DNA of 54,147 bases from a virus. Positions 8,955 through 49,147 of the stretch are shown here, piece by piece. How positions within the stretch are numbered: position 1 is the stretch's first letter; every line of letters starts with the position of its first letter. The DNA lies in IMG/VR virus record IMGVR_UViG_3300043418_000125, positions 1-54,147 of that record, one strand, 5' to 3'. The position numbers and the translations under genes are program-made. The notes under the pieces are model-generated. The model had not been told where the DNA came from and made no database searches. It worked only from the letters and a program-made list of their open reading frames with translations.

Positions 8955-10406
8955 TTACGTCCACGCTTTTGCGGAGGCCCGTTTCACCGGACGCGCTCGC
9001 ACGTTTTTGCCGCTTCCCTCACGCACAGCCAGGCAGAGGTACTGCAAGGCGTCATGGGGATGGCTGAATCTGTCTTTTACTGGGCGGTCACGGTACCGTT
9101 CACCAGCAACCTTGAGGCGCTCGTAGCGGTACCCGCCGATAAACCCCTTGCGGAGCTGTCGGCAGTTCGGTGACAGCAGGAATCCAGGCTCACCACCCGC
9201 CATACGGTTCAGGAAGTAAGCCACTGACTCGCGTCGTGGGATGAAATCGTTGGTCTCGGCAGGCTCGGAGGCGATGCCGATTTCGAGCAGCTCCTGATAA
9301 CAGGTTCGCTCGTCTGTTGATGAACGAGAAACACCCGCAGGGTCGCCGCGCGAAATGAATTTTAAGCCAGCGTACTTGTTCATCAGCTCAGGCTTGACGA
9401 TTTCAGAAGCAAACTGACGAATGCCCATGTCCTCGGCGACAAACTCATCAAGGATGATGAGCTGACCCTTGGGAGAGAGCTGGCCAACGATGCAGGCAGG
9501 GGTCAAACCAAAGTCCCACCCCAGATAAATCGGGGCAAATCTGTTGATTTCGGGTTCTCTGTCGGCAACGTGAACCTTGTCGCTGTACTCGGGGTAGACC
9601 GGCTTACCGCTTGCGGTGGTGCCGTAGTCGCCAAGCACGAAAACCTTGATCCAGTCGTCGCCCTTGCCTGCGACCATGCGCAAGTAGTATTCGTACCCGC
9701 TTGGCAGGTTGAAGATGTTCTCGGCGTCTGGGTTCGGGATGTAGTGAACGTCGTCACCGTCCTGAACGCGCAGCAAACCGCCTGGCTGATCGAAGAACTC
9801 CCAGTTGTCAGGAGTGTCTTCCTCGGCCAGCTTGTAGTACCAGTGGTCGTCGTCTGGCGGGTTGGTATCCAAGATGATGCAGGGGTGCGTCGGGCCACCC
9901 TGCTTCAAGCTCGGGAAGCGGCCAACACGCTGCGTCACCATGTCGAAGACTTCCTTCGGCAGCTCAGACGCTTCGTTGATCCACGCGCCGGTCAATTCCA
10001 GCGAGCGCAGCTTGCCGGTGTCGTTGGCAGTCTCCATCGCAATGAAGACGACCTCCAAGTCCAGACCGATGCCGTCGCCAGTGTCCTTGATGCGGATGCG
10101 GCTCGTAATCGGCGCATCCCACTTCATCGGGGCCAGGTCATCAGGGAACCAATCGCTCCACGTTTTAATCGTGGTGGACTTGAGTTCGGGGTAGGTACCG
10201 CGAATCACAGCCCAACGCGCACGACGAACACCTTGGTACGGAACCTGTTTCAACGTATGCGCCATGATTTCCATGCAGCATGTTGAAGACTTGCCCGAGC
10301 CAACCGGCCCCTTGAGGCCGCGCACAAAGGCAGTGGATTGGTGGAAAGCTGCGGCCACAGCACCAGGTGGCGTGTAGCGGACAGCCTTGATCTGTTCGTT
10401 AGACAT
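8955..10406 (-). CDS. terL: Terminase large subunit
   Basis: A 483-aa packaging motor. Walker A is GPVGSGKS (residues 33-40), a Walker B/acidic pair lies in LTGAWINEASEL (~138-149) and a coupling segment LDTNPPDDDHW at ~179-189. The nuclease domain begins at YLGWDFGLTP with Asp298 as a likely metal ligand. The protein uses ATP to pump DNA through the portal and cuts the concatemer. It follows a small-subunit gene by 6 bases and precedes the portal. The packaging mode (cos or headful) cannot be decided from the sequence. Confidence 0.93.
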   Translation of the reverse strand: MSNEQIKAVRYTPPGAVAAAFHQSTAFVRGLKGPVGSGKSSTCCMEIMAHTLKQVPYQGVRRARWAVIRGTYPELKSTTIKTWSDWFPDDLAPMKWDAPITSRIRIKDTGDGIGLDLEVVFIAMETANDTGKLRSLELTGAWINEASELPKEVFDMVTQRVGRFPSLKQGGPTHPCIILDTNPPDDDHWYYKLAEEDTPDNWEFFDQPGGLLRVQDGDDVHYIPNPDAENIFNLPSGYEYYLRMVAGKGDDWIKVFVLGDYGTTASGKPVYPEYSDKVHVADREPEINRFAPIYLGWDFGLTPACIVGQLSPKGQLIILDEFVAEDMGIRQFASEIVKPELMNKYAGLKFISRGDPAGVSRSSTDERTCYQELLEIGIASEPAETNDFIPRRESVAYFLNRMAGGEPGFLLSPNCRQLRKGFIGGYRYERLKVAGERYRDRPVKDRFSHPHDALQYLCLAVREGSGKNVRARPVKRASAKAWT

Positions 10407-10412
10407 AGGCGG

Positions 10413-10709
10413 TTAATCCGCCGGTGTCTTGGGCGGAGCGGTGAAGTTGGTGTTTACGAAGAAGGCGACCTTGTTGGTCTCAATCTCGTGCTTGACGTTG
10501 GCCAAGTTGGGCAGCGTCTTGTCGAGCAGCATCTCAATGGCCTTGAGTCGAGGGCCAGTCATCTTGACCTTCGACTTGCCAAGGGCAAAGCCCTCGAGCG
10601 TGTTGACCAGTTGGGACACTTGGATCTTCTCGCGCACGGCATCGGCATGTTCTGCACGAAGCTGTTCGCGGCGGGCGCTGATCGCTTCTTTGTTTTTTGC
10701 AGTTGCCAT
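10413..10709 (-). CDS. terS: Terminase small subunit-like protein
   Basis: A 98-aa protein directly upstream of terL. The N-terminal half is basic and helical, and the C-terminal half has the PRLKAIEMLLDKTLPNLANVKHEIE stretch typical of small DNA-recognition terminase proteins. It would bind the packaging site and present DNA to TerL. It is the first gene of the late block; the inverted repeat at 10752-10811 lies 43 bases upstream and is a possible recognition site. No clear Shine-Dalgarno sequence is visible before the ATG. Confidence 0.75.
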   Translation of the reverse strand: MATAKNKEAISARREQLRAEHADAVREKIQVSQLVNTLEGFALGKSKVKMTGPRLKAIEMLLDKTLPNLANVKHEIETNKVAFFVNTNFTAPPKTPAD

Positions 10710-10751
10710 GTTCGTAATGCGGCGGAGCCGAAATTAGTTTTTCAGGAATCC

Positions 10752-10811
10752 AAAGGCTATGCAGACTGTCCGGCCCACCAGGTACCCCCAGTGGCAGTCC
10801 GCATAGCTTTT
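10752..10811. repeat. 17-bp imperfect inverted repeat upstream of terS
   Basis: Bases 10752-10768 and 10795-10811 form an inverted repeat with 15 of 17 matches and a 26-base loop. It lies just before the first packaging gene. It could be a terminase recognition (pac or cos) element, or an mRNA leader hairpin of the late transcript. There is no T-run, so a terminator is unlikely. Confidence 0.6.
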
Positions 10812-11056
10812 GGTGTGGCCCGTGTCGTGGGCCAGTCGGCGGGGTCAACGCGAGGAGACACCTATTACGTCCCCCGCTGCGGTAGTTAAACCTCACCCAC
10901 CGCTTGAGGAAACACAGACACTTGTTCCATGTTGGGCACGAATGTAGTCGATTGATCCGGCATTCCACAAGACACCTTGAGGGGGTTTTTCGGTTTTTGT
11001 AGAAATCGGCAGGAGTCCCTGAATACACCCCCCTTGTTTTTCAGAATGTCCAGCAG

Positions 11057-11076
11057 CCCTCCCCCACCCCCTCCCC
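11057..11076 (-). other. G-quadruplex motif beside the non-coding iterons
   Basis: The minus strand reads GGGGAGGGGGTGGGGGAGGG: four G-runs of 3-5 with one-base loops, an ideal parallel quadruplex. It ends 15 bases before the heptamer repeats of the origin-like cluster. It may stall polymerases or regulate opening at that site. Confidence 0.7.
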
Positions 11077-11091
11077 TTGGCGACAAGGGTA

Positions 11092-11250
11092 TTGGTTTAT
11101 GGTTATTGGTTCTTGGTTAATGGTTGGGATTGCGTCCGGATACCGAATCAGACCTGATCCGTATCTGATTTCAGATGCGTTTCATATCTGATTTCATATC
11201 TGATTTCATATGCGTTTCAGATGTGATTTCAGATACGAATCAGATATTCG
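11092..11250. repeat. Origin-like cluster: five 7-bp repeats plus seven 11-12-bp iterons (non-coding)
   Basis: Bases 11092-11126 are five tandem heptamers of consensus TTGGTT(C/A). After a spacer, 11163-11243 holds seven tandem iterons of 11 or 12 bp (ATCTGATTTCAT type: 11163, 11175, 11186, 11198, 11210, 11221, 11233) and a partial eighth. The same two-part arrangement occurs inside the initiator gene at 26648-26743. Iterons are typical binding sites for phage replication initiators and AT/GT-rich repeats are typical unwinding elements. A replication origin or an initiator-binding control site is inferred. Confidence 0.75.
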
Positions 11251-11926
11251 AGGGGGAAATGAGAACTTATGTGGGTGGTACCTGAACCGAAGTAGTACAT
11301 GGCCAGAGGCGGACACGTGCGTGTGTGATACCCATAGGTAGAGGCTCAGGACGCCCGTACCTGCGCGCGCGGCCAGGCCACCCACCCGTACCCCCGCCTG
11401 CCATGCACGTGCGTATGCGGATGCACATGATGAGAAATCCGTTTCACTCCCGCATGAATACAGGGGTTTCAGGGGTGTGTGTGACGTGGATGTGACGTGA
11501 TCGGGCGCCTGCACTGCCCCTTTGGGGCTGGTCTGGTCTGGTCTGTTGGCTGTCTGTTGGTGGCTGACCGGTGCCGAAACGTGGTTTTTCGCGTGGTCGC
11601 GTGTGCAATGGCATGGCTTCTTACTTTTTCAGGGCTTTGATTCCCTTTTCAATCAACGCTTTATTGTTTTGCGCTGTGGTTCGTATTCCCTTCTAAACCT
11701 CCTTATGCGAGTGCAGAACCTGAGCGGGCTTGGGTACAGGGTTTTTCGGGCGAAGGCTTCACGCGAAAACGGCGCAGGCACTGGGCTGGTGGCTGGTTTC
11801 AGGGTTTACAAATCCCCTTGGGATTCACCACCTACGCATACACCACGCATTAACGAAGTGGAGCGCGTGCGGTCAGGGGCAAAAGGGTTTCCGGCGAACC
11901 CCCTACGGGGAACCGACAAACCCCAA
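11251..11926. other. Long non-coding stretch between origin-like repeats and early promoter
   Basis: No convincing gene is seen in these ~680 bp on either strand. Open frames exist but lack good ribosome-binding sites and have odd composition. The stretch holds a GT-rich run of CTGGT/CTGTTGG repeats at ~11527-11570. On the minus strand, an AAGGAGG at ~11698 precedes a 24-codon frame with no usable start (ending at 11621), which looks like a remnant. A CCCCCTACGGGG stem lies near 11899. Confidence 0.5.
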
Positions 11927-11994
11927 CAATACCCGACAAAACTTAACGGAATTGACAAGGGGGCTTGACACAGTGACAAGGCATCGGTTACAGT
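11927..11994 (+). promoter_or_regulatory. Promoter/operator of the rightward early operon
   Basis: The -35 is TTGACA (11965-11970) and the -10 is TACAGT (11989-11994) with an 18-base spacer. Upstream lies CAATACCCGACAA (11927-11939), and GTGACAAG (11973-11980) is inside the spacer. Both elements recur in the same order in the promoter of the leftward operon (27186-27232), which points to one shared regulator, probably CI. A near-palindrome ACAAG-N4-CTTGA overlaps the -35 (11955-11968). Confidence 0.7.
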
Positions 11995-12357
11995 TCAACC
12001 CGTCGATTCAAACCGACACCGCAAAAAGGCAAGCGGGATACCAAGACAGCCGGAAGCGTAGGACGCAGTAGCAAACCCCACACAGATGCAACAGGCTGTG
12101 GACACAAGAGGGATAGCGAACATAGGCCGAGCGCAGACCGCTTTGACCCATCCGTTCCAAGGGTGGCGAGTGCGATAACGGACACCGCGAGGTGGTGGGT
12201 AGGACAAACCCCACAACGCTACTCGGGGCAACTCGCCCCGTTCAACTTCACATCAAGTGCATCAAGTGCATGACATGCCTCACCGCAGCCGTGTCATGTG
12301 CTGGACGCATTACGTCTGTCCACACAAGCTCCCTTGTTACTCTCGAAAGGAACCCGT
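11995..12357 (+). other. Untranslated leader of the rightward early operon
   Basis: About 360 bases separate the promoter from the first start codon. The leader holds a CGGGGC-AACTC-GCCCCG hairpin (12224-12240) without a T-run and a direct repeat ATCAAGTGC (near 12253 and 12262). A long structured leader with a weak hairpin would suit antitermination or attenuation. No riboswitch family is recognised. Confidence 0.45.
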
Positions 12358-13530
12358 ATGTCAGATATGTTCGCCACCGCTGGCGCCTCAACCTTTTCCC
12401 TCGCCGATGACCTTAAGGGTTTATCGAAAGATAACGTCCTGAGTCTGTTCAAGTCCCTGCGCTCGGACGGAAAGATCGGCTTCGACCATGAGCGGATGAA
12501 AAAGCAAGAGTGCATCGACAAGCTCTTCGCCGACTTCCCGCACCACGCAATCGCCGACGCCATGAACCAGCACAACTTCATGCTGCCGAGTGACGTCACC
12601 GCCAAGGCGCCCAAGGCACCCACGACCTTCAAAAAACCAGCCGCCAACAAGGCCGAACTCGCCGAAAAGCTCGCCGATCTGTTCGCCAATACCGGCGAGT
12701 CGATTGACGAAGACAGAGTGCGTGCCATCGTGGATGACGCCATCGCCGATGCGGTCAAGCGTCTGGTCAATCGCATCGAGGTGAAACAGCCCGACCTTCC
12801 CGCCGTGGATGTGGGCATTCAGCACAAGCACTTCGAGACCTTGCTCAAGGCGTGCAATGCCCGTCAAGCGGATGGGCACCGCCTGAACGTCTGGCTCGTT
12901 GGCCCTGCTGGCTCAGGAAAAACGACCGCCGCCAAAATGGTAGCCAAGGCGCTCGGCATGACGTTCACGTTCAACGGCGCGATCAGCACCGAGTTTCAGC
13001 TCACCGGCTTCAAGTCTGCGTCCGGCGAGTACCAGCGCACCCCCTTCCGCGATGCTTGGGAACACGGTGGCATCTATCTGTTCGACGAGGTTGATTCATC
13101 GAACCCCGCCGCTGTCATGCCATTCAATGCGGCACTGGCAAACGGCTGTTATGCCTTCCCTGACCGCCTCGTTGAGCGCCACCCTGACTGCATCGTGATT
13201 GCCGGTGCCAACACCAGCGGCAACGGTGCCACTCACGAATATGTGGGGCGCATGAAGCAGGACAAGGCTTTTCTCGACCGCTTCGTTGAAATCGACTGGC
13301 CTGTTGACGAGAAGCTGGAGGCCGCTGTCGTGCCGAATGAGGCATGGGTGCTGCGAGTGCAAGGCGTCCGGAAACGTGCCGCCGCCCGAGGCATCAAGGG
13401 TCACATGATTACCCCTCGTGCTTCCACCTACGGTGCCGCCCTGCTGGCCGCTGGCCTGCCAATGGACATGGTTGAGCGCATGACCTTGAAAAAGGGTCTG
13501 GCTGACGACGCATGGAACGAAATCAAATAA
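12358..13530 (+). CDS. MoxR/CobS-type AAA+ ATPase
   Basis: A 390-aa protein. The first ~145 residues form a helical region; the AAA+ domain has Walker A GPAGSGKT (182-189), Walker B YLFDEVD (~240-246) and a downstream sensor region (VIAGANTSGNG). The AAA core resembles MoxR, CbbQ and CobS ATPases, which remodel target proteins with a VWA-domain partner. The start at 12358 is preceded by AAAGGAA. It is the first gene of the early operon and 12 bases upstream of a VWA-like partner gene, so the two probably act as a remodelling pair. The target is unknown; a host protein or the phage's own replication or virion complex are possible. Confidence 0.85.
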   Translation: MSDMFATAGASTFSLADDLKGLSKDNVLSLFKSLRSDGKIGFDHERMKKQECIDKLFADFPHHAIADAMNQHNFMLPSDVTAKAPKAPTTFKKPAANKAELAEKLADLFANTGESIDEDRVRAIVDDAIADAVKRLVNRIEVKQPDLPAVDVGIQHKHFETLLKACNARQADGHRLNVWLVGPAGSGKTTAAKMVAKALGMTFTFNGAISTEFQLTGFKSASGEYQRTPFRDAWEHGGIYLFDEVDSSNPAAVMPFNAALANGCYAFPDRLVERHPDCIVIAGANTSGNGATHEYVGRMKQDKAFLDRFVEIDWPVDEKLEAAVVPNEAWVLRVQGVRKRAAARGIKGHMITPRASTYGAALLAAGLPMDMVERMTLKKGLADDAWNEIK

Positions 13531-24381: not shown

Positions 24382-24944
24382 AATGGAATCTCCGAAGTCT
24401 TCTTAGTGCTGAATGCTGCGTTCATTGCCGCTGCGGCCTGGCCAAGTTTGATGTCCCTGGTTGGGTGCAGCTTCTTAATCTGTTCGCAAACCTGTTCAAG
24501 CTCAACGCCGGTGCGGATGACGCCGTGGTCATTCAAGAAGTCCGCCGCCTGCTCGAGTGCGAACCTGCGGATGACGCGCTCGGTCTCCACGTTGGTGGCG
24601 TAGGTCTTGTTATTGTTCGTCGCCATCTCAAGGTCGAACGACAACTGCTTGACTGCCTCTTTGTATTTGGCAAGCTCACGCTCCAACTCTGCAATACGTG
24701 GGTCGCCGGTTCGCTCTTCGCCAATCAACGTGTCAACAGTTCGCCGAATGTCCTGTGCAATCAGGTGCGGGTATTCAATCCATACCTGCGGAGCCACACG
24801 ATGCGATGCTGACTTGCCGTTCTTGCGCACGTTGATGACGTAATCCATCGTTGCAAAGTTCTGCACTACTTCGATGCCAACGCCTCGCGCACTCTCGATA
24901 CGCACTGCTGCGTCAATAATTTTTTGATCTATCGTTGCGCTCAT
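24378..24944 (-). CDS. Coiled-coil protein after the helicase
   Basis: A 188-aa protein starting MSATIDQKIIDAAVRIESARG. It has an N-terminal alpha/beta region, a long coiled coil around IAELERELAKYKEAVKQLSFDLEMA (residues ~85-110) and a C-terminal helical region ending KKTSEIPF. The start at 24944 overlaps the helicase stop by 4 bases, so a helicase-partner role such as loader or clamp is possible but unproven. No ATPase motif is present. Confidence 0.62.
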   Translation of the reverse strand: MSATIDQKIIDAAVRIESARGVGIEVVQNFATMDYVINVRKNGKSASHRVAPQVWIEYPHLIAQDIRRTVDTLIGEERTGDPRIAELERELAKYKEAVKQLSFDLEMATNNNKTYATNVETERVIRRFALEQAADFLNDHGVIRTGVELEQVCEQIKKLHPTRDIKLGQAAAAMNAAFSTKKTSEIPF

Positions 24945-25894
24945 ATCGCTTCCCCTTCTGGTGCTGTGTAACGGGAGTAGTCGTAGAGCATCGGACGTGC
25001 TGGATGTTCTGAGTACGAGACCGCACCCTGCACGTAATACAACCCAACTCGGCCTTCCCAATCTCCGTGTCGATTCTTGTCGCAAACCAGAATGGCGTCA
25101 GGGATTGACTCGTCAACCTCCTTGCCCTTCTGTTTGTCCTGTTCCTTGCGTTTGTTGCGCCAGACTGTGAACGACTGGTCAACCTGGTCAACGATTGCGC
25201 CGCTGCCCTTGGCGTCCATCTTTCCTGGCACCTGGTTCTCGTCAGCCAGCTTGCGGCTGTGATGAATGATGTGGACGTGGACGTTGTAGTCCTGCGCAAA
25301 GGCACAGACTGAATCGACAAAGTTCTTCTGTCCGTTGTAGTCATCCTCGCCCTTGACCACCTTCATCAGTGAGTCAACAACGAAGTGCTGCAAGCCGAAC
25401 TTGTTCACGGCATAGCGCATGATGGCCAGCAAGTGATCTGGGTCTGTGTGACCCATCTTGTCGTACAGCCACAGCTTGCCGGTCGCATGGCTGATGACGC
25501 TATCAACAAAGCCTTCGCTCGGGTGTGCGCTCGCCGCTGCCTGCTTACACATGCGTGCGAGTGTGGCCTTGGGTTTCATTTCAAACGAGGCGATGCAAAC
25601 CTTCTGGCCTTGATGCAGGAAGTCGAGCATCACGTGGCTGGTCAACAGACTCTTGCCGTGTCCGTTCACACCCATCCACAGGCTCACCTCACCTGGGCGG
25701 AAGCGGATGTGGTCGAAGGTCTTCTGCCACGGCAGGGTTGCACCACGCAGGGTGTCGCCACCAGCAAGGTAGGCCACCACGTCGTCACGGTAGGCGAGCG
25801 GTGCCACCAGTTTGTCAACGTCATGTGGCTCGGCTGCGTACTGCGCGAAGTCGTAGCTGTCGGCAGAGAAAATCAAGTCGTCGGCATTACTCAT
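24941..25894 (-). CDS. Replicative DNA helicase, DnaB/Twinkle-like
   Basis: A 317-aa RecA-fold helicase. Walker A is GVNGHGKS (residues 75-82), a Walker B-like Asp is D174 in HFVVDSLMK, and a VHIIHHSRK segment (~207-215) corresponds to the H/Q sensor motif of DnaB-type enzymes. It lacks the long N-terminal domain of bacterial DnaB, so it resembles small phage helicases. It would unwind DNA at the fork. It overlaps the upstream gene by 8 bases and lies two genes from the initiator. Confidence 0.87.
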   Translation of the reverse strand: MSNADDLIFSADSYDFAQYAAEPHDVDKLVAPLAYRDDVVAYLAGGDTLRGATLPWQKTFDHIRFRPGEVSLWMGVNGHGKSLLTSHVMLDFLHQGQKVCIASFEMKPKATLARMCKQAAASAHPSEGFVDSVISHATGKLWLYDKMGHTDPDHLLAIMRYAVNKFGLQHFVVDSLMKVVKGEDDYNGQKNFVDSVCAFAQDYNVHVHIIHHSRKLADENQVPGKMDAKGSGAIVDQVDQSFTVWRNKRKEQDKQKGKEVDESIPDAILVCDKNRHGDWEGRVGLYYVQGAVSYSEHPARPMLYDYSRYTAPEGEAI

Positions 25895-26357
25895 GGCGCT
25901 TCACCCCCTTGAATGCAACTCGGTCGAAGCGGCTCATGGGAGACAGGTCGAATGTCTCAGGCTGATTCCCGATGCCAAGCTCAGGGATGCCGAGGTACCC
26001 GCTGTGCCATGTGAGCTGGAGGCCATGCTGTTTGATGACGTCCCACATCCACAGGTAGCCGATGGTGGGCGTGAATGGCTTGACGTAGCCGCCATTGGGG
26101 GCTTGGCGAACGACGGCCTTGCTGACCTCGCTCACGCGCTGGTGCGGCACCTTGTCGTGGTACACAAGGCAGACACTCAGGTCTCGCACCCATCGCCAGT
26201 CGAAGGTGCTGATGCGGTCGGCAGGGTCGAGCAGGACTTGGAAGTTCCCGTCAACCAGTGGGCCAACGAGGCTGACGAACACAATCTCGTTCGGGCGCTT
26301 GCCCTGCATCCGCATGTCCCAAATCTCTTGGGCGCCGTATGGCAGTGTCGGGTTCAT
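25887..26357 (-). CDS. Protein between initiator and helicase, unknown function
   Basis: A 156-aa protein starting MNPTLPYGAQEIWDMRMQGK. It has alternating strands (EIVFVSLVGPLVDGNFQVLLDP, then WVRDLSVCLVYHD) and TIGYLWMWDVIKQ. Its ATGA overlap with the initiator and its overlap with the helicase start suggest a function at the initiation step, for example helicase loading. No AAA+ or other motif supports that directly, so function remains open. Confidence 0.6.
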   Translation of the reverse strand: MNPTLPYGAQEIWDMRMQGKRPNEIVFVSLVGPLVDGNFQVLLDPADRISTFDWRWVRDLSVCLVYHDKVPHQRVSEVSKAVVRQAPNGGYVKPFTPTIGYLWMWDVIKQHGLQLTWHSGYLGIPELGIGNQPETFDLSPMSRFDRVAFKGVKRHE

Positions 26358-27052
26358 AGCAGACCCCCGAAGTGGTCTTCTGCTTGGGCGCCGCCATCAC
26401 CTGTCTCGTCTGTCCAGCGTTGCTGGTTCAGCCAGGTGCTTGGGTACTGGATGAACTGTCCGTCATCCTTCGTCCACTCACGGGATTGCTTGGCACGTTG
26501 CAGTCCGGCCATGATGGCCTGCATCAACGCCTCGTCTGGCGCGATACGCAGCCATGCCTTCAACGCCTCTGGCTTTGCTACCTTCTTGGGGTAAGCAGCC
26601 CAGAAAATATCGAAGCCCTCGTCCGCGACCTTAGCCTTTGGCTTAGGTTGGTTCTTGGTTCTTGGTTCTTGGTTCTTGGTTGGGATACGATCCGCATCTG
26701 ATTTCGTATCTGAAACCACATCTGATTTCGTATCTGATTTCGCAGCCCAACGTGATCTGTTGGCGTTACGAGCCGAGTCTGATTTCGCAGCGTACTTGGA
26801 CAGCTCCAAGTCGCAGCGCTCATTGCGCCAGCCGTCAGGCGTCAGCACAAAAAACTCCTTGAGGACGGCCTCGACCTCTGCCGTTTGATCGCGCATGGCA
26901 ATCAGACGGGCGACCTGGCCAACGTCAGCGGGGAATGGGGATTCTTCTGTGTAGTACGCATCGAGCAACCGGCGATAAGCCAAGTCCTCGAGCAGAGACA
27001 GGTGTCGGGTCTTCGTCAGGTAATCCCTGACATGAAACGGGTAGTGGTACAT
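26354..27052 (-). CDS. Replication initiator-like protein (DUF1376)
   Basis: A 232-aa protein starting MYHYPFHVRDYLTKTRHLSL, the DUF1376 signature of lambda-O-like replication proteins. A polar linker (residues ~95-140) carries a four-residue repeat (KSDT, KSDV, VSDT, KSDA) and a TKNQEPR repeat; the DNA of this linker is a string of iterons and heptamers. The C-terminal part has FDIFWAAYPKKVAKPEALKAW and the STWLNQQRW motif common in phage initiators. I chose 27052 because earlier starts give an unusual extension through the promoter. Lambda O also carries its own origin inside its gene. It presumably binds the iterons and recruits the helicase. Confidence 0.8.
   Translation of the reverse strand: MYHYPFHVRDYLTKTRHLSLLEDLAYRRLLDAYYTEESPFPADVGQVARLIAMRDQTAEVEAVLKEFFVLTPDGWRNERCDLELSKYAAKSDSARNANRSRWAAKSDTKSDVVSDTKSDADRIPTKNQEPRTKNQPKPKAKVADEGFDIFWAAYPKKVAKPEALKAWLRIAPDEALMQAIMAGLQRAKQSREWTKDDGQFIQYPSTWLNQQRWTDETGDGGAQAEDHFGGLL
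26648..26743. repeat. Origin-like iterons and heptamers inside the initiator gene
   Basis: Bases 26648-26682 are five tandem heptamers (TTGGTTC four times, then TTGGTTG). Bases 26696-26743 are four exact-period 12-bp iterons: ATCTGATTTCGT, ATCTGAAACCAC, ATCTGATTTCGT, ATCTGATTTCGC. A degenerate further copy lies near 26776-26788. The layout copies the non-coding cluster at 11092-11250. It resembles lambda, where the origin lies inside gene O. Confidence 0.85.
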
Positions 27053-27185: not shown

Positions 27186-27232
27186 CTTGTCACATAGTCA
27201 ATAGCATATCCTTGTACTCTTGTCGGGTATTG
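27186..27232 (-). promoter_or_regulatory. Promoter/operator of the leftward replication operon
   Basis: On the minus strand, in order: CAATACCCGACAA (27232-27220), TTGACT as -35 (27201-27196), then GTGACAAG (27193-27186). The -10 at ~27178-27173 (GACACT) is weak. The same 13-mer and TTGAC-N3-GTGACAAG occur at the rightward early promoter. Two further ACAAGG half-sites flank the element. This suggests repression by CI. Confidence 0.65.
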
Positions 27233-34422: not shown

Positions 34423-37400
34423 CTATTTGGATCGAGCCATCTTGATTCGAGCCTCCTCGACCTGTTTGGCATAGTCTGTTCGGAGCTGTTGAATGCGCTC
34501 AATCTCGAGCCGCTTCTCAGCGCCGGACATCGTGGCGTCATCCTCGACTACCTTGAGCTGCTTGTTCAGCTTGGATAGGCTATCCGAGGCTTTGGCGTAC
34601 AGCTTGCTCATGGAAATCTGGTCGCCCTTCTCTTCGGCAATCGCCTCAGCCCGTTTGTACTGGCCAAGGTTGATGAAGTTCTGGTAGTCGGCCACCGCAG
34701 TCGCAGCTTCCTTGGCGTTCTCGTAGAACGAGGTGACGTACTTCGACTGGCCTTGCGGCATGGTCTTCACGTAGTTTCCCACCACCAAGAAGTCGTCGAT
34801 GCGCTCAAAGCGCGATGACTCACCTGGCTTGAGCGGAGCAACCGCCATGTTCGATGTCGCCTGCATGGCGGTACCGACCCAACCCAAATACCCCCGAATG
34901 AGGTAGTCGTACTGGATGGGCGAGAGCTGCATGTTGTCGGCGTTGATCGCCCCGCCGGTGACGGCAGAGGCCATCTCGGCAAACATGCCGTTGATCTTGC
35001 CCAGACCCACCGCCACGGCAGACGTGCCCTGGTTGACTCGGTTGCCAACAGACAGACGCTCCATGCCCATCGACTCGATTGGTCGGCTGGTGAAGCCATC
35101 CTTGTTGCGAGCGATGTCGTACACGGGGCGAACAATCTGGGGCACAGGGTTGATGGCCAGGTTGTCAGCGAACACCGCCAACAGACGGCGACCGAACACC
35201 TTGCCTTCCACGTTCTTGTCCACGAGCTGCTCGGTAAAGCGCTCGACGATGGTCTCGAAGGCGCCCATCTCGAATGGCTTGGGGATGCGCAGGCCGGTCT
35301 TGGTGCCAGGCACCTTGAACCAGAAGAACGCGTCACGTTCCCAATCCTCCAGCGCCTTGTAGTCGTCGTCATCCTTCTGGCTGAGGTACAGCACGATGCC
35401 GAACATCGTGATGGCGCCCAACACAGCAGAGAACTTCGCGGCTTTCTGGCGCTCGGACTCTGTTGCATTTCCGCTGAGAGACTGAACCACTGGGTCTAAG
35501 CCGTCGCGGCCGAGCTTGTACAGGCCCTGCAAGCGAGCATTGAAGTACGGCAGGATTTGGGACAGATACCGCACTGCAACAAAGCCACCTTGCAGCGAGA
35601 AGTCCTGCAAGTCACGGGCAGCGTATGCGGCCTCGAGGTGGGTGGCACCGTTCGCACGGAGCTGGTTGTACAAAGCGAGGCGGTTGGAGTTTTCCATCGC
35701 GTCACTGATTTCGTCGTATTTGTCCCACACACCCTTGAAGGCTTCCTTCACCTTGGTCTCGGTGGTGAGGATGTCCTTGTTGGGAACGCCCTTGCGGATG
35801 AGGTGCTTCACATTGGAGGCAGCATCACCGTCAAAGGCGTTGCCCATTGCAAAGATGCCGCCGCCAGCCAGAGCTGAGGCGCGGTCATCTTTGTACGCAC
35901 GCCATCCTTCGATGACGTTGGCGATGGGGTTCTTATTCAGCTCGGAGATGCCGATGGACTGAACAGAGTCGCGGATCAAGTTGTTGATCTTGAACGTGGG
36001 GCTGAGGGAGATGAAGCGAGTCAGCGTGGTCTTGAACTCGCGAGCCGTGTTCGTCCAGAAGCCGTAGCTAGGCACGCTGGCCACCGCATCCAGCGAGGCC
36101 AACAGGAACTCGTCGTCAATGCGCCAGTGTTGCTCTTTGCCATCGACCATCGTCTTGACAGAATCCTTCTCGGCGACTTTGAGTTTGGTCACAATGCCGC
36201 CCATCTGCATGGCAGAGTTGAGCGTTTCATTCGCAGCTTCGTTTTTCATCGACGCAGACAAAATGTGCGACCAGTTCATCAGCACGTTTTCCATCAGGTC
36301 GTTGAGCGGACGCTCGGAGCCTTTGAGCTTCTTCGACAGGTACTGGCCAACGGCAGCAGTGGATGTCTGGGCACCCGACAGGCTGCGGTCGTCATCCATG
36401 TTGCGGTAGAACGGCACGTACCAAATGTCAGACGAGAAGCGCTTGTACGCTGCCTCGTCAATGAGACCGTTGGTGCGAGCGATGTCGAGAACAGAGCGGT
36501 TCAGCTCGTTCATCTGTTGCAGGGTGTTGACGTACAGCGCCGCGCGCGACTTGCCATCTTTGGTCGTGCCCAGGTTGAGCTTCTTCAACTCAGCAATCTC
36601 GTCGTCCTTGAAGAAGTGTTCGCGGTCAGACTTCTTCAACTCGCCTGCGCGGTTGGCAGCAATCCACAGCAGGAAGCGGTCAACCTCGATGCCGAGCGGT
36701 TGCAAGACTTCGAGCAGACCCTTGGTGCCCTTCTTGATGTTGAGAGCGCCATCGTCGTTGAACACCTGGCCGTAGTGCAGCAGCGCGGAGACAGCGCCGT
36801 CTTGTGGGCCGTTCGACATGCGCAGCTTCATGTACGCCTTCATGTCCAGGTCGCGCACAGAGCGGAACTTATCGAAGGTGCCCTGCACCACGCGCAGCCA
36901 GAAGCGAGGCTTCAATGCCTCAAGGCGCTCTTGGATTGATGGAGGCGAGTAGTGACCCTTGGCCAACGCAATGGCGCGTGCCTTGGGTGAGAGGTCGTCG
37001 TACTGAGCCTCGTAGTCGTGGCGACGGAACATGGGCAAGCCATCCTCAGCCACGATCTGTTGCAGCTTCTCGGGAATGACGAAGCCGAGCTGTTGCCCAG
37101 TGCCTTCGATGTTCATCACCTCAACCTTGCCGCCCATCTCTTTCTTGCCAATCAAATCCTTTACCACAGACGGTACGGTCTGGTTGTAGTAGCTGGCCAC
37201 GCCATCGCCACCAATGTCCATCTCTTCGCCGACCAGCTCGAGCGTGCCGCCATCGTTGATGGCTTTGTTGGCCAAGTCCTTGCCGACCGTAGCCGACAGT
37301 TCTTTCTGGCCGACACCCTTCTGGTTGATGACGCTGGCACCAGCCTTGTTGCCCACCACGTCGAACGTGCCGTCATCGTTTTGTTTGATGGTCAGCTTGT

Positions 37401-40400
37401 CAACAGAGTTCGACAGTTTGTAGCGGTCAACCTGTTGCTCGCCGGTAGTCCATGCGATGCGGTTGATACCCTGCTCTTGGGCGTAGGCAATCGCACGCTT
37501 CAACAGAAGCGCAGTCCATGCCTTCGTGTCTTTCATCATCGGCGCGTCGGGCACCTTGCCCTCTTCGTTGCCGAAGCCAAGCTCGCGACCGTCTTGGCCA
37601 CGCTGGCTTTGAATCTCTTCAAGGAACAGAACGTCGTTGCCGTCCATATCCTTGCGCTGGTTCATGCGAACCCAACCGAGGTGCTTGCCACCTGACTCTG
37701 GGCCGAAGTGGATCTCGTCAAAGTCTTTGTACGGCTTGGTGCGGCCGGACGGTTCGGTGACGATGAGTTCGACGTAGTTCTTGCCACCGGCCAATGTGTA
37801 CTGGCGGTGCTTGGTGCCCTGCAACAGACGAGGGTCGAGCGACAGCTCATCAATCATCTCCTCGCGGGTCAGGTCGATGTCTTCCTCGAGCGTGCCAGTC
37901 TGGTCGGCGTACATTGAGCGGATGTCTTCGTCGCTCAGGCGCTTACCGGCGCCACTGAGAATGACGTCGTTCAGGTGCAGCTTGTTGCCAGCAATGAAGT
38001 CCAGAACCTGTTGCTTCGTGACCTTGCCGGTTTGCATGGCCAGCCAGTCGTTCACGCCAGTCCATTTGATTTCCTCTTCGCGCACGCCAGGGAGCTTGCC
38101 GATGATGGCAACCCAGTCCTTCGCCTGTGCGGATTCCTGCTTGGCAGCGCGTGTGGCACGCTCAAGCGCTGAGTAGAAGGTCGGAGCCTTGCCACGCATC
38201 TGGCCTTCCAGCATGGATGCGTCAGCGGCCTTTGTACCGCCCTTACCTTCTTCACCTTCGCCATCGACAACGAACTTGCGTGCGTTGCGAACGAGCTGGT
38301 TAATCTCGTTGTTGCTGGCGTAGGCAATGTTGAATGTCTCACGCAGCCATTTGCGGATGGCGGCGTAGATCGTGCGCAGTGCAGACTTGGCATCGGCATC
38401 GAGCTTGTCGCCCTTCTCCGCCATGTCGGCCAAGACTTCCTCGGTGGCCTCCTCGAGTGCGAGACCTTCTTTGACCATCATGGCTTCTGCACGCTGGCGA
38501 ACAGTCTTGTTGCCGTTGAACAGACCACGCATGGTCTCTGCGTGCTTCTCGCCCAGGATCGAGCGCAAGCCGAAGTGGCCTGCGATTTCGTGAGCGATGG
38601 TCAGGATGGCGTCGTTGGCGTTGTGGATGTTGCCAGCAACCAAGTACACCTTGCCATTGAGGTAGATGCCTGGCACCTTGTTGGCCATACCGGCGCGTTT
38701 GATGCGAGTTAGCGTTTTGATCGGCAGGTCATCCTCTGTCTCGAGAACAACCACGTTGGGCATGTTTGCCCACTCGCCAGTCATCTTGGCCAAGACCTTC
38801 TTGACATCGGCCTTGTTCATGCCGGTGTCGCCAACCGTGGTCACACGGTAGTGAGCCTTGTAGCCTTTGTTGAGCTGCGCAATTTCGTTCAGCTCGCGCA
38901 TGGCACCGATGAAGTCACCAGATTCCGCCATCTCTTTCAGGCGAATCTCGTCCTCCATATCCAAGGCGTTGTCGTTGTACGCCTTGTCGATGCGCTCAAT
39001 AGCCTTCTTGAGCTTTACAGGGTCAACCTTCGGGCTGGCCTTCTTTACTTCTGGTTCGGGTTCTGAGCGCTGCTCAGTTGGCGCTTCGCCAGTTCGTTCT
39101 TCACTATTCTGGCTCGGGCTTTCGGTGCGAGCTTGCTCAGTGCCACCATCCCCTTCAACAGATTTTGCTTCCTTAGCTTGTCGAGCGACTTCATCATTGA
39201 TTTCTTCCTCAGTGAATCCAAGCGCCAGCATAGCTGAACGCAGGTCAGTATTGCTCTCGCCACCAATGGCGATTGCATCGTCAATGTCGAACAAGCTGGC
39301 ATCGTCCAGCTCGCCCACGTATTGCATGGCTTCGCGCTCTGCCGCCTCGTAGCCATCGTCACCTTCGTCTAAGAAGGCTTGGTCTTCTGCATCTTCCTGC
39401 TCGCGCTGGCGCTGCTCCTCCATGCGCTGTGCAAGGATGTCATCAGCGTCGTCGCCGTACAGGGGTGCAATCTTCTCACCGCGCATGGCGCGTTGGATGA
39501 GTGCATAGATTTCGTCTTGGCCACCGATGGCGTCCTTGGGCAAGAAGCCACGCTCGGCAGCGTAGGTCTGCAAGTCATCCAGCGACAGTCCGGTCTTGCG
39601 GAACACAGGGCCGTAGCCAGACGCCATGAATGCGCGGCGCTCTTTGATGCCAGGGGCAAACTCCAGCACGACATCGAGCTTGATGCCGTAACGGCCGAGG
39701 AACGCCTTGAATGGGTTGTCCTTGGCCAGAGCTGAACGCAGGCGATCACCAGCAGAGCGTTTCTTTTCTTCCTTGGTCTGTTCGACTTTGGGAGTTTCAT
39801 CGACATGTTTTGCAGACGTGTCGTTTTCAGGCTCGGCTTTCGACACGACAGGCTCGGCCTTTGGTTCAGCCTTGGTTTCCTCGGCCTTTACTACCGGAGC
39901 TTGTGGCGCTGCTACCGGAGCTGGCTGCGCTGCTACCGGAGCGGCTGCTGGCTTCTGCTCGAGCGCGAGGGGTTTGCCCTTCACGCCATCCTTCACCCAT
40001 GACTTGAATGCCGCCATAGGCATTTCGCTGATGGCGCCCAAGCCAGTCCAGCCTGGGGTGTAGTTGGCCAAGTACGCCTTGCGTGCCTCGGCCTCGGTGT
40101 TGAAACCGACAAGCGCCTTGTGTTCGTCGAAGCTGCCGTCTTTGTTTACTTGGTCAACGACGAACACCTTCTTGCTGCCAGGGTTGCCGCCGATGAAGAC
40201 GTCAACGTGGTCTTTGTCTTTGCCGACAGTGCCCTTGATGTAGCCATAGTGGTTGGCCATCGTGTTCTTCCACTCGGTACCGTCAGGAGACTTACCGCTG
40301 CGCTCGGAGCCAGCAGGGTTCTCGATGGCGATACGCAAGCCGCCCACAAACTTCGGTGGGAGGTGCCCCTTCTTGTAGACGCCAGACTTCTTCTGGGCCT

Positions 40401-42477
40401 CAGTGGGTTGTGGCGTGTCATTGAGCGGACTGGTCGCAGCTTGGTGCGCAGCCTCGTCGATCTGCTCGACAGCGGATGGGGTCTCAGGTTTCTTGCGGCC
40501 CTCGATGAAATAGAACATGCCACCGCCAGCAGCCTTGGCTCTCTTGCCTTGGCGAATCTGGAACTCCATGTCATCAACAGAGCTTGCGTAACCACCCTCT
40601 CGTTGACCAGTTTCCTTGTTCTTGGGGCCGAGCAAAAAGGTCTCGGCTTGGGCCATGCTCACAAACTTGTTGCCCACGGTCTGTTGGCCAACCTGGAACG
40701 TAGGCATGACGTCGTAGCCTTCCTTGCGAGCCACCAGGTCTTCTGGTGACATGGCCACGGTACCGGCTTGGTTTGTGGTCTCAGGCAGAACGACAGGTTG
40801 AGCCTCACCTTCGAGGGTTTTGGTTTCCTCGTTGGGGGTCACGCTGTCGCGGCGAATCACTGGGTCTGTTGCGCCAGTATTGCTGCCGATGCCGGTCGAT
40901 GCCGTGTCGCCATAGGCAGCACGCACATCCTCGCCACGCTCTTTGGTGCGCTTGGCCTGCTCCTCTGGGGTGACAGGCTCGACACCACTGAGCATCTCTT
41001 TTACGCGCATGGCTTGCGTCACCACAGCGTCGAAGCGTGGGTCATCAGACGACTCAATGCCAGCGGCACGCAGGGCGGCAGCTACCTTGGGGTCGTCTTG
41101 GAATGCAGCGAAGACTTCGGCGCGGCCGTCCTCAGTGGATAGCTTCTGCTCAAACATCGAACGAGCTTGCTCGATGGTCATCTTCTGGTCTTCGCCCTCG
41201 CCACCCTTCTTGCCGAAGGCGCCCTTACCTGCACCGAACAGCACGCCACCCACCGCACCGGCAGCAGCCGAGTCGATGTAGTCGCGGATGGCTTCGGATG
41301 TGGCCAGGTCTTTACCGGCGCCAAAGCGCTCAAAGCCGGTTTGCACAGCTTCGGTGGTGGACTCACGCAAGCCACCCTTGAATGATTCAACAGCCAGGTT
41401 GCGCACCAGGCCGTTGCCGCCGAGGGCTTTCGTTAAACCCTTCACGGCAAACAGATCAGATACCGTGTCTGTTGCAGCGGCAAGGACGGCACCCGTCCAC
41501 ACTCGGCCCAGATCAACGTCACCACCTTTGGCGGCATCCTTGGCGTCGCCGTAGATGGACGCGCCTTCCATTGCGAGGTTCTGGCCAGACACGGCAGCGG
41601 CTGCGCCGACGCCCTTCATAACCGACTGCGCTGCTTGGGTATAGGCGAGCTTCTCCGCTTCGGCAGCGGCCATGCCCTTGCCTGCGTTGACAGCGATGTT
41701 CTTGGCGACCTCACCCTCGAGCTTGGCAGCGATCAGTTTCTTGATGCCGGTCTGTGCTGCGCCGCGCGCAAACGTGCCTTCGACAGCGCCTGCAACGGTA
41801 CCGGCGCCAGGCAGGACAGAACCAACAGCAGCGCCAGCACCGGCCGCAACCAGTGTCTGCGCAGCTTGGCCAACAGCATAGCCGCCCCAGTATTTGAAGA
41901 AGTCACCGAACGACGCCTTGCCGTCCATGACATTGCTGAACGACTCATAGTCCTGCGCATCCTTCTGGGACTCCTCTTTGATGCCCTTGTAAGAGTCATA
42001 CAACTTGCCCGAGGTTTCCTTGGCGCCAACAGTGTCAGCCAACAAGGCTGCACCACCGACCGCCATCTCTTTGGCCGAGTCAATGCCGCCAGCCTTCAAG
42101 CCGCGAGCTGTTGGCCCCGACGCTGGTTCAGCGGGTTTCTGGGTCTCAGTCTGGGCAGGCTCACTCCATGAGCCTGGCACTGCGAACGAGATGCTTGGAG
42201 AATCTGTTGCAGTCTGTTTGGGTTGCGACACAGGCTTGATCGGCGCACCTGCCAGCGAAGCGGGGAATGCAAATGAGATAGGAGCTGGAACTGGAGCTGC
42301 GGCTTGCGTGTTGTCAGGTAGCGGCTCAACCTTGCGAGACAACTGAGGGTCAGTCTTCTCCTTGAGGCCAAGCACATCCTGGCGGAGCGCCGTCTTGCTA
42401 TCCAAGAACAACCCGTCCGAGTCGTCTTCCTGAGTACGAAGCAAAGGGGCGGGGCGCCCCAGTCGCAGATCATCCAT
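34423..42477 (-). CDS. Giant ejected polyvalent virion protein
   Basis: A 2,684-aa protein, the last gene of the late block. Visible parts: N-terminal Pro/Ala-rich region and Gly/Ala hydrophobic stretches (~195-360); an inorganic-pyrophosphatase-like polyvalent domain (YGYIKGTVGKDKDHVDVFIG, ~715-835); an LPD-type domain (NPFKAFLGRYGIKLDVVLEF, ~915-1010); a metallopeptidase-like domain with HEIAGHFG (His1296, Glu1297, His1301); a FGPESGGKHLGWVR and FLEEIQSQRG region (~1590-1640) known from large polyvalent proteins; and an LPD38 domain (~2015-2450: IWYVPFYRNMDDD, NPIANVIEGWRAYK, YFNARLQGLYKLGR), then a hydrophobic LGAITMFGIVLYLS and a C-terminal coiled coil. Such proteins are packaged and enter the cell with the DNA. 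It follows two smaller internal virion proteins by 3 bases. Confidence 0.85.
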   Translation of the reverse strand: MDDLRLGRPAPLLRTQEDDSDGLFLDSKTALRQDVLGLKEKTDPQLSRKVEPLPDNTQAAAPVPAPISFAFPASLAGAPIKPVSQPKQTATDSPSISFAVPGSWSEPAQTETQKPAEPASGPTARGLKAGGIDSAKEMAVGGAALLADTVGAKETSGKLYDSYKGIKEESQKDAQDYESFSNVMDGKASFGDFFKYWGGYAVGQAAQTLVAAGAGAAVGSVLPGAGTVAGAVEGTFARGAAQTGIKKLIAAKLEGEVAKNIAVNAGKGMAAAEAEKLAYTQAAQSVMKGVGAAAAVSGQNLAMEGASIYGDAKDAAKGGDVDLGRVWTGAVLAAATDTVSDLFAVKGLTKALGGNGLVRNLAVESFKGGLRESTTEAVQTGFERFGAGKDLATSEAIRDYIDSAAAGAVGGVLFGAGKGAFGKKGGEGEDQKMTIEQARSMFEQKLSTEDGRAEVFAAFQDDPKVAAALRAAGIESSDDPRFDAVVTQAMRVKEMLSGVEPVTPEEQAKRTKERGEDVRAAYGDTASTGIGSNTGATDPVIRRDSVTPNEETKTLEGEAQPVVLPETTNQAGTVAMSPEDLVARKEGYDVMPTFQVGQQTVGNKFVSMAQAETFLLGPKNKETGQREGGYASSVDDMEFQIRQGKRAKAAGGGMFYFIEGRKKPETPSAVEQIDEAAHQAATSPLNDTPQPTEAQKKSGVYKKGHLPPKFVGGLRIAIENPAGSERSGKSPDGTEWKNTMANHYGYIKGTVGKDKDHVDVFIGGNPGSKKVFVVDQVNKDGSFDEHKALVGFNTEAEARKAYLANYTPGWTGLGAISEMPMAAFKSWVKDGVKGKPLALEQKPAAAPVAAQPAPVAAPQAPVVKAEETKAEPKAEPVVSKAEPENDTSAKHVDETPKVEQTKEEKKRSAGDRLRSALAKDNPFKAFLGRYGIKLDVVLEFAPGIKERRAFMASGYGPVFRKTGLSLDDLQTYAAERGFLPKDAIGGQDEIYALIQRAMRGEKIAPLYGDDADDILAQRMEEQRQREQEDAEDQAFLDEGDDGYEAAEREAMQYVGELDDASLFDIDDAIAIGGESNTDLRSAMLALGFTEEEINDEVARQAKEAKSVEGDGGTEQARTESPSQNSEERTGEAPTEQRSEPEPEVKKASPKVDPVKLKKAIERIDKAYNDNALDMEDEIRLKEMAESGDFIGAMRELNEIAQLNKGYKAHYRVTTVGDTGMNKADVKKVLAKMTGEWANMPNVVVLETEDDLPIKTLTRIKRAGMANKVPGIYLNGKVYLVAGNIHNANDAILTIAHEIAGHFGLRSILGEKHAETMRGLFNGNKTVRQRAEAMMVKEGLALEEATEEVLADMAEKGDKLDADAKSALRTIYAAIRKWLRETFNIAYASNNEINQLVRNARKFVVDGEGEEGKGGTKAADASMLEGQMRGKAPTFYSALERATRAAKQESAQAKDWVAIIGKLPGVREEEIKWTGVNDWLAMQTGKVTKQQVLDFIAGNKLHLNDVILSGAGKRLSDEDIRSMYADQTGTLEEDIDLTREEMIDELSLDPRLLQGTKHRQYTLAGGKNYVELIVTEPSGRTKPYKDFDEIHFGPESGGKHLGWVRMNQRKDMDGNDVLFLEEIQSQRGQDGRELGFGNEEGKVPDAPMMKDTKAWTALLLKRAIAYAQEQGINRIAWTTGEQQVDRYKLSNSVDKLTIKQNDDGTFDVVGNKAGASVINQKGVGQKELSATVGKDLANKAINDGGTLELVGEEMDIGGDGVASYYNQTVPSVVKDLIGKKEMGGKVEVMNIEGTGQQLGFVIPEKLQQIVAEDGLPMFRRHDYEAQYDDLSPKARAIALAKGHYSPPSIQERLEALKPRFWLRVVQGTFDKFRSVRDLDMKAYMKLRMSNGPQDGAVSALLHYGQVFNDDGALNIKKGTKGLLEVLQPLGIEVDRFLLWIAANRAGELKKSDREHFFKDDEIAELKKLNLGTTKDGKSRAALYVNTLQQMNELNRSVLDIARTNGLIDEAAYKRFSSDIWYVPFYRNMDDDRSLSGAQTSTAAVGQYLSKKLKGSERPLNDLMENVLMNWSHILSASMKNEAANETLNSAMQMGGIVTKLKVAEKDSVKTMVDGKEQHWRIDDEFLLASLDAVASVPSYGFWTNTAREFKTTLTRFISLSPTFKINNLIRDSVQSIGISELNKNPIANVIEGWRAYKDDRASALAGGGIFAMGNAFDGDAASNVKHLIRKGVPNKDILTTETKVKEAFKGVWDKYDEISDAMENSNRLALYNQLRANGATHLEAAYAARDLQDFSLQGGFVAVRYLSQILPYFNARLQGLYKLGRDGLDPVVQSLSGNATESERQKAAKFSAVLGAITMFGIVLYLSQKDDDDYKALEDWERDAFFWFKVPGTKTGLRIPKPFEMGAFETIVERFTEQLVDKNVEGKVFGRRLLAVFADNLAINPVPQIVRPVYDIARNKDGFTSRPIESMGMERLSVGNRVNQGTSAVAVGLGKINGMFAEMASAVTGGAINADNMQLSPIQYDYLIRGYLGWVGTAMQATSNMAVAPLKPGESSRFERIDDFLVVGNYVKTMPQGQSKYVTSFYENAKEAATAVADYQNFINLGQYKRAEAIAEEKGDQISMSKLYAKASDSLSKLNKQLKVVEDDATMSGAEKRLEIERIQQLRTDYAKQVEEARIKMARSK

Positions 42478-48653: not shown

Positions 48654-49147
48654 TTGTGCAGCGCCTTCATTGCGTCGGTTTTGTCCTTGCTGCCCTGGCT
48701 GGAGCCAAAGTAGAAGCCAAGGACTTGGGTGGCCGCGCTGGTGATGAAGCCGAGCGCGTAGATGATGATGTTTTCTTGCGAGTCGGGGATGTTCGCGAAG
48801 ATGAGCAAGCCGATCAAAAAGAAGGCCAAGCCCACGGTGCCGAGCGCCAGAATGGGTGGGGTCAGCTTCTCAAGGATATGGGCGTTCGCGCTGGTGGCGA
48901 TGGCGGTGTGCGCGGCGCGCGCGCTGTCGCGGTCGGCGTTCTCGAGCTTGAGCTTCTCAAGGTCAATCTCAGCCAGCTTGGCGGCAGCTTCGGGATCGCG
49001 TGCCACAGCGGTGGCCACAGCCTCAACCGTGTCAGCCACACCGAGCTTGTCAGCCATTGCCTTGACGGCCGCGCCACCCAACGGGCCAGCCACCACGGTG
49101 GCCAGCGCGGGTGCTGCGCTCTTCAACAAATCAAGTAGCTTGTCCAT
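48650..49147 (-). CDS. Holin-like membrane protein (GTA_holin_3TM type)
   Basis: A 165-aa protein. The N-terminus has a hydrophobic/amphipathic region (SAAPALATVVAGPLGGAAVKAM), a charged helix and two strong spans near the C-terminus (PILALGTVGLAFFLIGLLIF and IIYALGFITSAATQVLGFYF). This resembles the GTA-type three-span holin. It is next to the endolysin with a 4-base overlap. Start at 49147 was preferred over a longer frame that would run into the neighbouring gene. Confidence 0.78.
   Translation of the reverse strand: MDKLLDLLKSAAPALATVVAGPLGGAAVKAMADKLGVADTVEAVATAVARDPEAAAKLAEIDLEKLKLENADRDSARAAHTAIATSANAHILEKLTPPILALGTVGLAFFLIGLLIFANIPDSQENIIIYALGFITSAATQVLGFYFGSSQGSKDKTDAMKALHK

Follow-up and report, generated by a model that had tools for sequence, protein, structure and literature searches.

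In phage lambda, the origin of replication consists of iterons located inside the gene of the initiator O, followed by a melting region. Satellite phage P4 has two separated cis regions, ori and crr, which carry the same initiator-binding repeats, the initiator being a primase-helicase. To our knowledge, the pairing in phages of an origin inside the initiator gene with a matched noncoding one rests mainly on SPP1. In SPP1, oriL lies in gene 38 and oriR in a noncoding stretch of the late region, 12–13 kb apart; both are bound by gp38, and a switch from theta replication, begun unidirectionally at oriL, to sigma replication has been proposed to occur when forks meet bound oriR (PMC6316719, PMC3485210). 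In P1, two groups of iterons bound by the initiator are located around repA (PMC10999674).

The window, i.e. the whole stretch of DNA analysed, is 54,147 bp long. Its ends are identical over 127 bp and its circular map is thus probably complete. As judged from its gene content (integrase, CI-like repressor), the phage is of the temperate type. Sak annealing protein, RecE-like exonuclease and portal genes are also present, as are a 2684-aa protein (34423–42477, minus strand) matching DarB-like antirestriction and virion-protein PHROGs, and a tRNA-Pro (AGG) gene (49007–49096, minus strand). The first-pass annotation had described a noncoding block of five heptamers and seven iterons of 11–12 bp, and the same two-part layout, in the same orientation, within a DUF1376 gene 15.5 kb away. 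Both arrays, their identical orientation and the distance of 15.5 kb were recovered (Table 1), the noncoding block lying in a gap of about 1.6 kb (10710–12297). The gap heptamers proved more degenerate than the announced TTGGTT(C/A): five 7-bp units are present (TTGGTTT, ATGGTTA, TTGGTTC, TTGGTTA and ATGGTTG on the plus strand) and only two are exact, while the in-gene copy is made of five TTGGTT units at exact 7-bp spacing.

Table 1. Position of the two repeat blocks and of the surrounding features in the window
Feature	Coordinates	Strand	Remarks
Terminase large subunit (TerL) gene	8955..10406	-	
98-aa gene, small-terminase candidate	10413..10709	-	directly upstream of TerL; candidate by position only
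Predicted terminase-operon promoter	10941..10970	-	TTGTGG-18-TACATT; read by eye; similar elements in relatives
Gap-site short-repeat module	11092..11126	-	five 7-bp units: AACCATT-AACCAAG-AACCAAT-AACCATA-AACCAAT (minus strand)
Gap-site iterons	11139..11250	-	about 7 copies, family 1 (CTGAAATCAGAT), spacing 11–12 bp
Motif GAGCCTCTACCTATGGGTA	11329..11347	-	upstream of the gap site; conserved in the clade; candidate cos/pac or regulatory element
Predicted divergent promoter of the CobS-like gene	11965..11994	+	TTGACA-18-TACAGT; consensus scan; similar sequence in relatives
CobS-like AAA ATPase gene	12298..13530	+	other side of the gap from the terminase genes
DnaB_C-like helicase gene	24941..25894	-	downstream of the DUF1376 gene
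DUF1376 gene, probable replication initiator / primosomal protein (232 aa)	26354..27052	-	PF07120, E 4.8e-24; PHROG primosomal / replication initiation
In-gene short-repeat module	26648..26682	-	five AACCAAG-type units
In-gene iterons	26688..26742	-	4–5 copies, family 1

In the shuffle comparison named beforehand as one able to overturn the pairing, local alignment of the two blocks gave a score of 64, against a maximum of 33 among 2000 dinucleotide shuffles (mean 17.0, sd 2.6). An iteron motif derived solely from the DUF1376 genes of other phages had seven matches within 120–130 bp at 11161, in line with the seven gap iterons claimed, and four at 26696; the next best stretch of the window had at most one. 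None of the ORFs spanning the gap block had a match in the syntenic relative G002, and neither a BLAST search of the gap against cultured phages nor a search against Rfam returned anything.

The DUF1376 protein matched PF07120 with 85 bits (gathering cut-off 30.1). Its open frame reaches a GTG at 27193, and the relatives begin at the equivalent of MYHYPFHV. The 98-aa gene showed no family match and has counterparts at the same place in relatives (51–73% identical). The predicted terminase promoter is located about 120 bp past the repeat end of the gap site and was not found by the promoter consensus scan, which returned the single divergent element, with 1.0 expected in shuffles. The motif GAGCCTCTACCTATGGGTA lies between the CobS-like gene and the iterons and is kept across the clade, even in a relative, G089, from which the gap site is missing.

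The in-gene block proved to be widespread among DUF1376 phages. A scan of IMG/VR for three tandem AACCAAG units gave at least 119 stretches. Among the matches listed, the array was located within a DUF1376 gene, on the sense strand, in 90 of 119, and at least two array-bearing contigs beyond these 90 (L063, L072) encode weaker DUF1376 members. All three reading frames are represented among the array starts (55, 26 and 4 of 85 genes), which points to selection on the DNA. The repeats preceding it differ from phage to phage: the commonest 9-mer before the array had a mean count of 3.2, compared to 1.6 after codon shuffling, and exceeded every codon shuffle in 49 of the 85 genes. The window follows the same pattern, iterons and then tandem AACCAAG on the sense strand.

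AACCAAG arrays were also detected after iterons in two replication-initiation genes of PHROG 2447 (L021:2094–3125 and L032:12056–13216), both without DUF1376 match. Because these initiator genes carry the heptamers, the repeat module is not restricted to a single initiator family. On contig 3300020042_011521, heptamers are found at gene boundaries; as an origin block this candidate was rejected, the heptamers being a general repeat there.

In all, 38 other array-bearing contigs, mostly from DUF1376 phages, were searched over their whole length for a second copy of their own block. An iteron-plus-repeat block clearly above noise was found only in G002 and G009, the latter being the only case outside the clade of the window (1 of about 37). 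In G009 (L141), the two blocks of iterons (AACGCAATGCC) and heptamers share one strand, are separated by 344 bp and lie outside the DUF1376 frame. Matches in G023 and G029, both without DUF1376, were limited to heptamers, and G027 gave a single 25-bp match. G002 (IMGVR 3300033521_000005) is syntenic with the window at about 35–79% protein identity, and its second block occupies the equivalent position, with the orientation unchanged and 15 kb away from the first block, but is built of different iterons.

A search based on the portal protein gave many more relatives, from which four complete phages with a normal DUF1376 gene (G060–G063) were added. Together with the window and G002, these make six syntenic complete phages with a gap site (G000, i.e. 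the window, G002 and G060–G063), all uncultured like the rest of the clade as represented here, and close enough that clade counts are not independent trials. In all six the site lies between the CobS-like AAA gene and the terminase genes, the latter being 13.1–16.6 kb from the initiator gene. A further relative, G064, whose DUF1376 gene is divergent, lacks both iterons of these families and a noncoding gap at this place. In G089, which has DUF1376 and the GAGCCTCTACCTAT motif, there is neither a gap site nor a copy elsewhere above noise, and the flanking GAGCCTCTACCTAT motif and the promoter are kept despite this. Terminase relatives of at most 68% identity, taken from viral and bacterial genome collections, showed neither recognisable iteron families nor heptamers in the gap; those checked as contigs were mostly without DUF1376.

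Three other observations were made around this position. In G002, an extra cluster of family-2 iterons without heptamers (L264:9054–9106) is located about 180 bp before the gap site. Upstream of TerL in L401 and L406, family-2 iterons are followed by a 6-bp AACTAG tandem instead of the repeat module. L266 has a CT-rich repeat in front of TerL, which was rejected as low complexity.

The iterons of the six phages fall into two families, family 1 (CTGAAATCAG) in G000, G061, G062 and G063, and family 2 (ATAGGGGGGC) in G002 and G060. Using motifs built from phages outside the clade set, both sites were matched in G000 (11161 and 26696), in G060 (6524 and 47625) and in G002 (matches at 39494, 54555 and 54318); no cross-family match occurred in these three genomes. 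The iterons of G061–G063 are variants poorly detected by the short motif. Alignment of their in-gene block to their own gap scored 41–56, compared to a 95th percentile of 21–22 for random stretches of the same genome, and their gaps contain clusters of the palindromic core. As expected, the blocks of some family-1 phages fit the gap of another such phage no worse than their own. The in-gene block of G000 can also be aligned to the G002 gap via common heptamers.

The repeat unit covaries as well, with octamers (AACCC...) at both sites in G062 and G063 and AACCATT/AACCATA at both sites in G061. Within each phage, the two blocks have their own iteron family in common, and usually also the short-repeat variant. 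In G060, the in-gene iterons are decayed and without heptamers, and family-2 iterons and AACTAAG units form a noncoding block between the Sak and CI genes, in the opposite orientation. Since this block is present although the in-gene copy has decayed, G060 still has a pair of sites. Partial contigs bring the number of iteron families seen at the gap position to four, with families 3 (CGTTCAACG) and 4 (CCCAGTGGG) each followed by a short tandem repeat.

The protein reading the iterons was investigated with a nearest-neighbour comparison of 62 DUF1376 proteins with an assigned iteron family. The nearest protein by N-terminal domain had the same family in 41 of 62 cases (shuffled mean 13.3, maximum 23), while the C-terminal part, although encoded equally close to the iterons on their other side, gave 11 of 62, which corresponds to chance. 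After removal of close relatives the N-domain signal fell to 28–30 of 62, which no shuffle reached (maximum 26). Five families can be told apart by residues 94, 97 and 98, located where the DUF1376 helix ends: AAN in family 1 (12 of 12), GGA in family 2 (21 of 21), AAG in family 3 (11 of 12, with one KAG), xNG in family 4 (7 of 7) and NIA in family 5 (8 of 8). Within each family, these residues are encoded by 6 to 12 distinct codon combinations. The possibility that codons 91–99 are themselves iterons is largely excluded, 59 of 60 proteins having no core of their own family there at up to one mismatch. The window protein (A94, A97, N98) has the family-1 code, and all six clade members obey the code, with gap sites of the matching family.

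The iteron families were assigned from the linker DNA in sets chosen by the authors, and held-out cases therefore matter; agreement in these was judged by eye and not scored blind. Uncultured held-out phages that agree are L084, L093, L016 and G089 (family 4), L068 (family 2) and L049 (family 3); L018 (AGA) would be a miss if positions 97 and 98 alone were used, and unseen residue codes accompany unseen iterons. For the 6 of 12 cultured phages with a known code (three of family 3, three of family 4), agreement by eye was complete; two cultured phages with ASA have GCGAACGCA iterons, as do L027 and L031. Because the iteron type follows residues 94/97/98 and not the C-terminal half, it is likely the DUF1376 protein that reads the iterons, and at both sites. 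The structure model of DUF1376 displays a confident helical N domain, which can be read as winged-helix-like; a fold search of the model against the PDB gave no significant match. In a literature search carried out largely on papers available without subscription, no link of DUF1376 to an origin was found.

The short repeats differ between the two sites in a way that relates to coding. Within the clade, AACCAAG accounts for 11 of 19 in-gene units, and AACCAAT, AACCATA or AACCATT for 36 of 45 gap units (from partly related contigs). Repetition of the latter three creates a stop codon in every frame, that of AACCAAG creates none. The coding copy thus looks like a compromise that avoids stops, while the gap copy resembles the preferred form. 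In L535 (Moraxella phage Mcat25, 701–1135), the DUF1376 gene stops inside the repeat module at a TAA from AACCAATAA, giving a 144-aa protein, which fits a stop-codon constraint on in-gene units. By calculated stability of 35-bp windows, the gap repeats belong to the least stable 0.5% of the genome and the in-gene repeats to the least stable 5%; for the gap repeats, this is what would be expected of a melting element.

From the two matched modules, their conserved position, their concerted change and the residue code, we infer binding, melting, origin activity and a replication switch as follows. The DUF1376 protein would be an origin-binding initiator, a helix of which (around residues 90–102) would read the phage-specific iterons, and the adjacent module of 7–8-bp AACC repeats would be the place of DNA melting and helicase loading. 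The same protein would bind ori1, inside its own gene, and ori2, which lies about 15 kb off in the noncoding gap that immediately precedes the terminase operon. Early replication would most likely start at ori1. The gap site, by analogy with oriR of SPP1, is most likely a second initiator-bound origin or a fork-control site: ori2 would serve as a second, late origin, as a point near the packaging genes where the bound initiator controls forks, or as both, and might help the change from circle replication to packaging concatemers, as proposed for oriL and oriR. The model as a whole, with one DUF1376 initiator binding both sites and the second one serving as origin and/or fork control near the packaging genes, is held with moderate confidence.

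Among the roles that the first-pass annotation had offered for its two origin-like sites, that of an alternative origin, here widened to fork control, is the best match, since melting repeats and iterons are both preserved in the gap copy; the pairing itself is strongly supported by the comparison of phages. A partition site appears less likely, as the phage has an integrase and the genes inspected close to the block, which is flanked by terminase and CobS-like genes, included neither ParA nor ParB. Analysis of GC skew, also proposed at the outset, gave no support for a start or end of replication at the gap. The apparent change of sign near the gap in some phages is lost once four-fold sites are considered, at which the skew goes with the coding strand; it was therefore rejected as evidence of replication direction.

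Two main rivals of an origin or fork-control role remain. In the first, the gap iterons would titrate the initiator or handcuff with the in-gene iterons and so limit initiation. Identical initiator sites at a distance, with seven iterons in the gap and four in the gene of the window, are what such a control site would offer, and RepA of P1 binds two iteron groups and controls copy number via them (PMC10999674). A control site needs no melting module, yet nearly every gap site has one which covaries with that of the gene, and the distance of 13–16.6 kb and the place by the packaging genes are conserved; this explanation is thus considered unlikely. The second rival, for which the chances are rated equally low, is a transcription switch, whereby the gap-bound initiator would repress or activate the terminase (late) promoter and/or the CobS-like operon and couple late expression to replication. 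The location between divergent predicted promoters, with that of the terminase operon some 120 bp away, also fits transcription control. The distance to that promoter is, however, long for direct repression, G089 keeps promoter and motif though the site is gone, and the repeat module is left unexplained.

Far less probable is a terminase pac/cos recognition site, as which the repeats directly upstream of the terminase genes could be taken: TerL is 73% identical between G000 and G002, yet their iteron families are unrelated, the iteron type matches the initiator of the phage instead, and the nearby conserved GAGCCTCTACCTAT motif is a better candidate. It is just as improbable that the gap copy is a functionless leftover of duplication or gene conversion of the initiator gene, since, easily as short repeats recombine and alike as the two copies of a phage are, their likeness ends at the modules, with differing copy numbers, arrangement and units, the position is kept across portal proteins 65–76% identical to that of the window while the iteron family changes, and the restriction to a stop-free unit is loosened outside genes.

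With an origin or fork-control site as the preferred reading, the clade amounts to a set of natural replicates that kept the pair through changes of iteron, repeat unit and location. Within it, the question of what a second origin is for, the concatemer-switch model of oriR included, lends itself to comparison and swapping. DUF1376, a domain of unknown function, would gain a specific role and a predicted DNA-recognition code, by which origins could be located in many phages from sequence alone. It is more tentatively proposed, at somewhat less than even chances, that DUF1376 proteins form a large undescribed class of initiators whose iterons can be read from residues 94/97/98, and that one clade pairs its origins, the second at the head of the packaging operon, with concerted change at both sites of the iteron family, the repeat unit and even the place of the first site.

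Compared to the known systems, the window shares with P1 the presence of two groups of initiator-binding iterons. In P1, a plasmid prophage with par genes, these groups flank repA at short range and govern copy number, and unlike sites of the iterons-only P1 type, the gap site retains its 7-bp repeat module. Lambda has one such site, and its initiator belongs to a different family; the window departs from the single array of the O type by a second matched array outside the gene. The likeness to SPP1 is one of layout. In both phages a site in the initiator gene is matched by a noncoding one (12–13 kb apart in SPP1, 15.5 kb here), direct repeats and melting region are similarly organised, a DnaB-type helicase is encoded nearby, and a single-strand annealing recombinase is accompanied by an exonuclease (here Sak and RecE-like). 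One initiator is proven to bind both sites in SPP1 and is predicted to do so here. SPP1 is a lytic phage of a Gram-positive host, whereas the window phage is temperate by gene content; its melting module is a tandem 7–8-bp AACC repeat, and its iterons switch family between close relatives.
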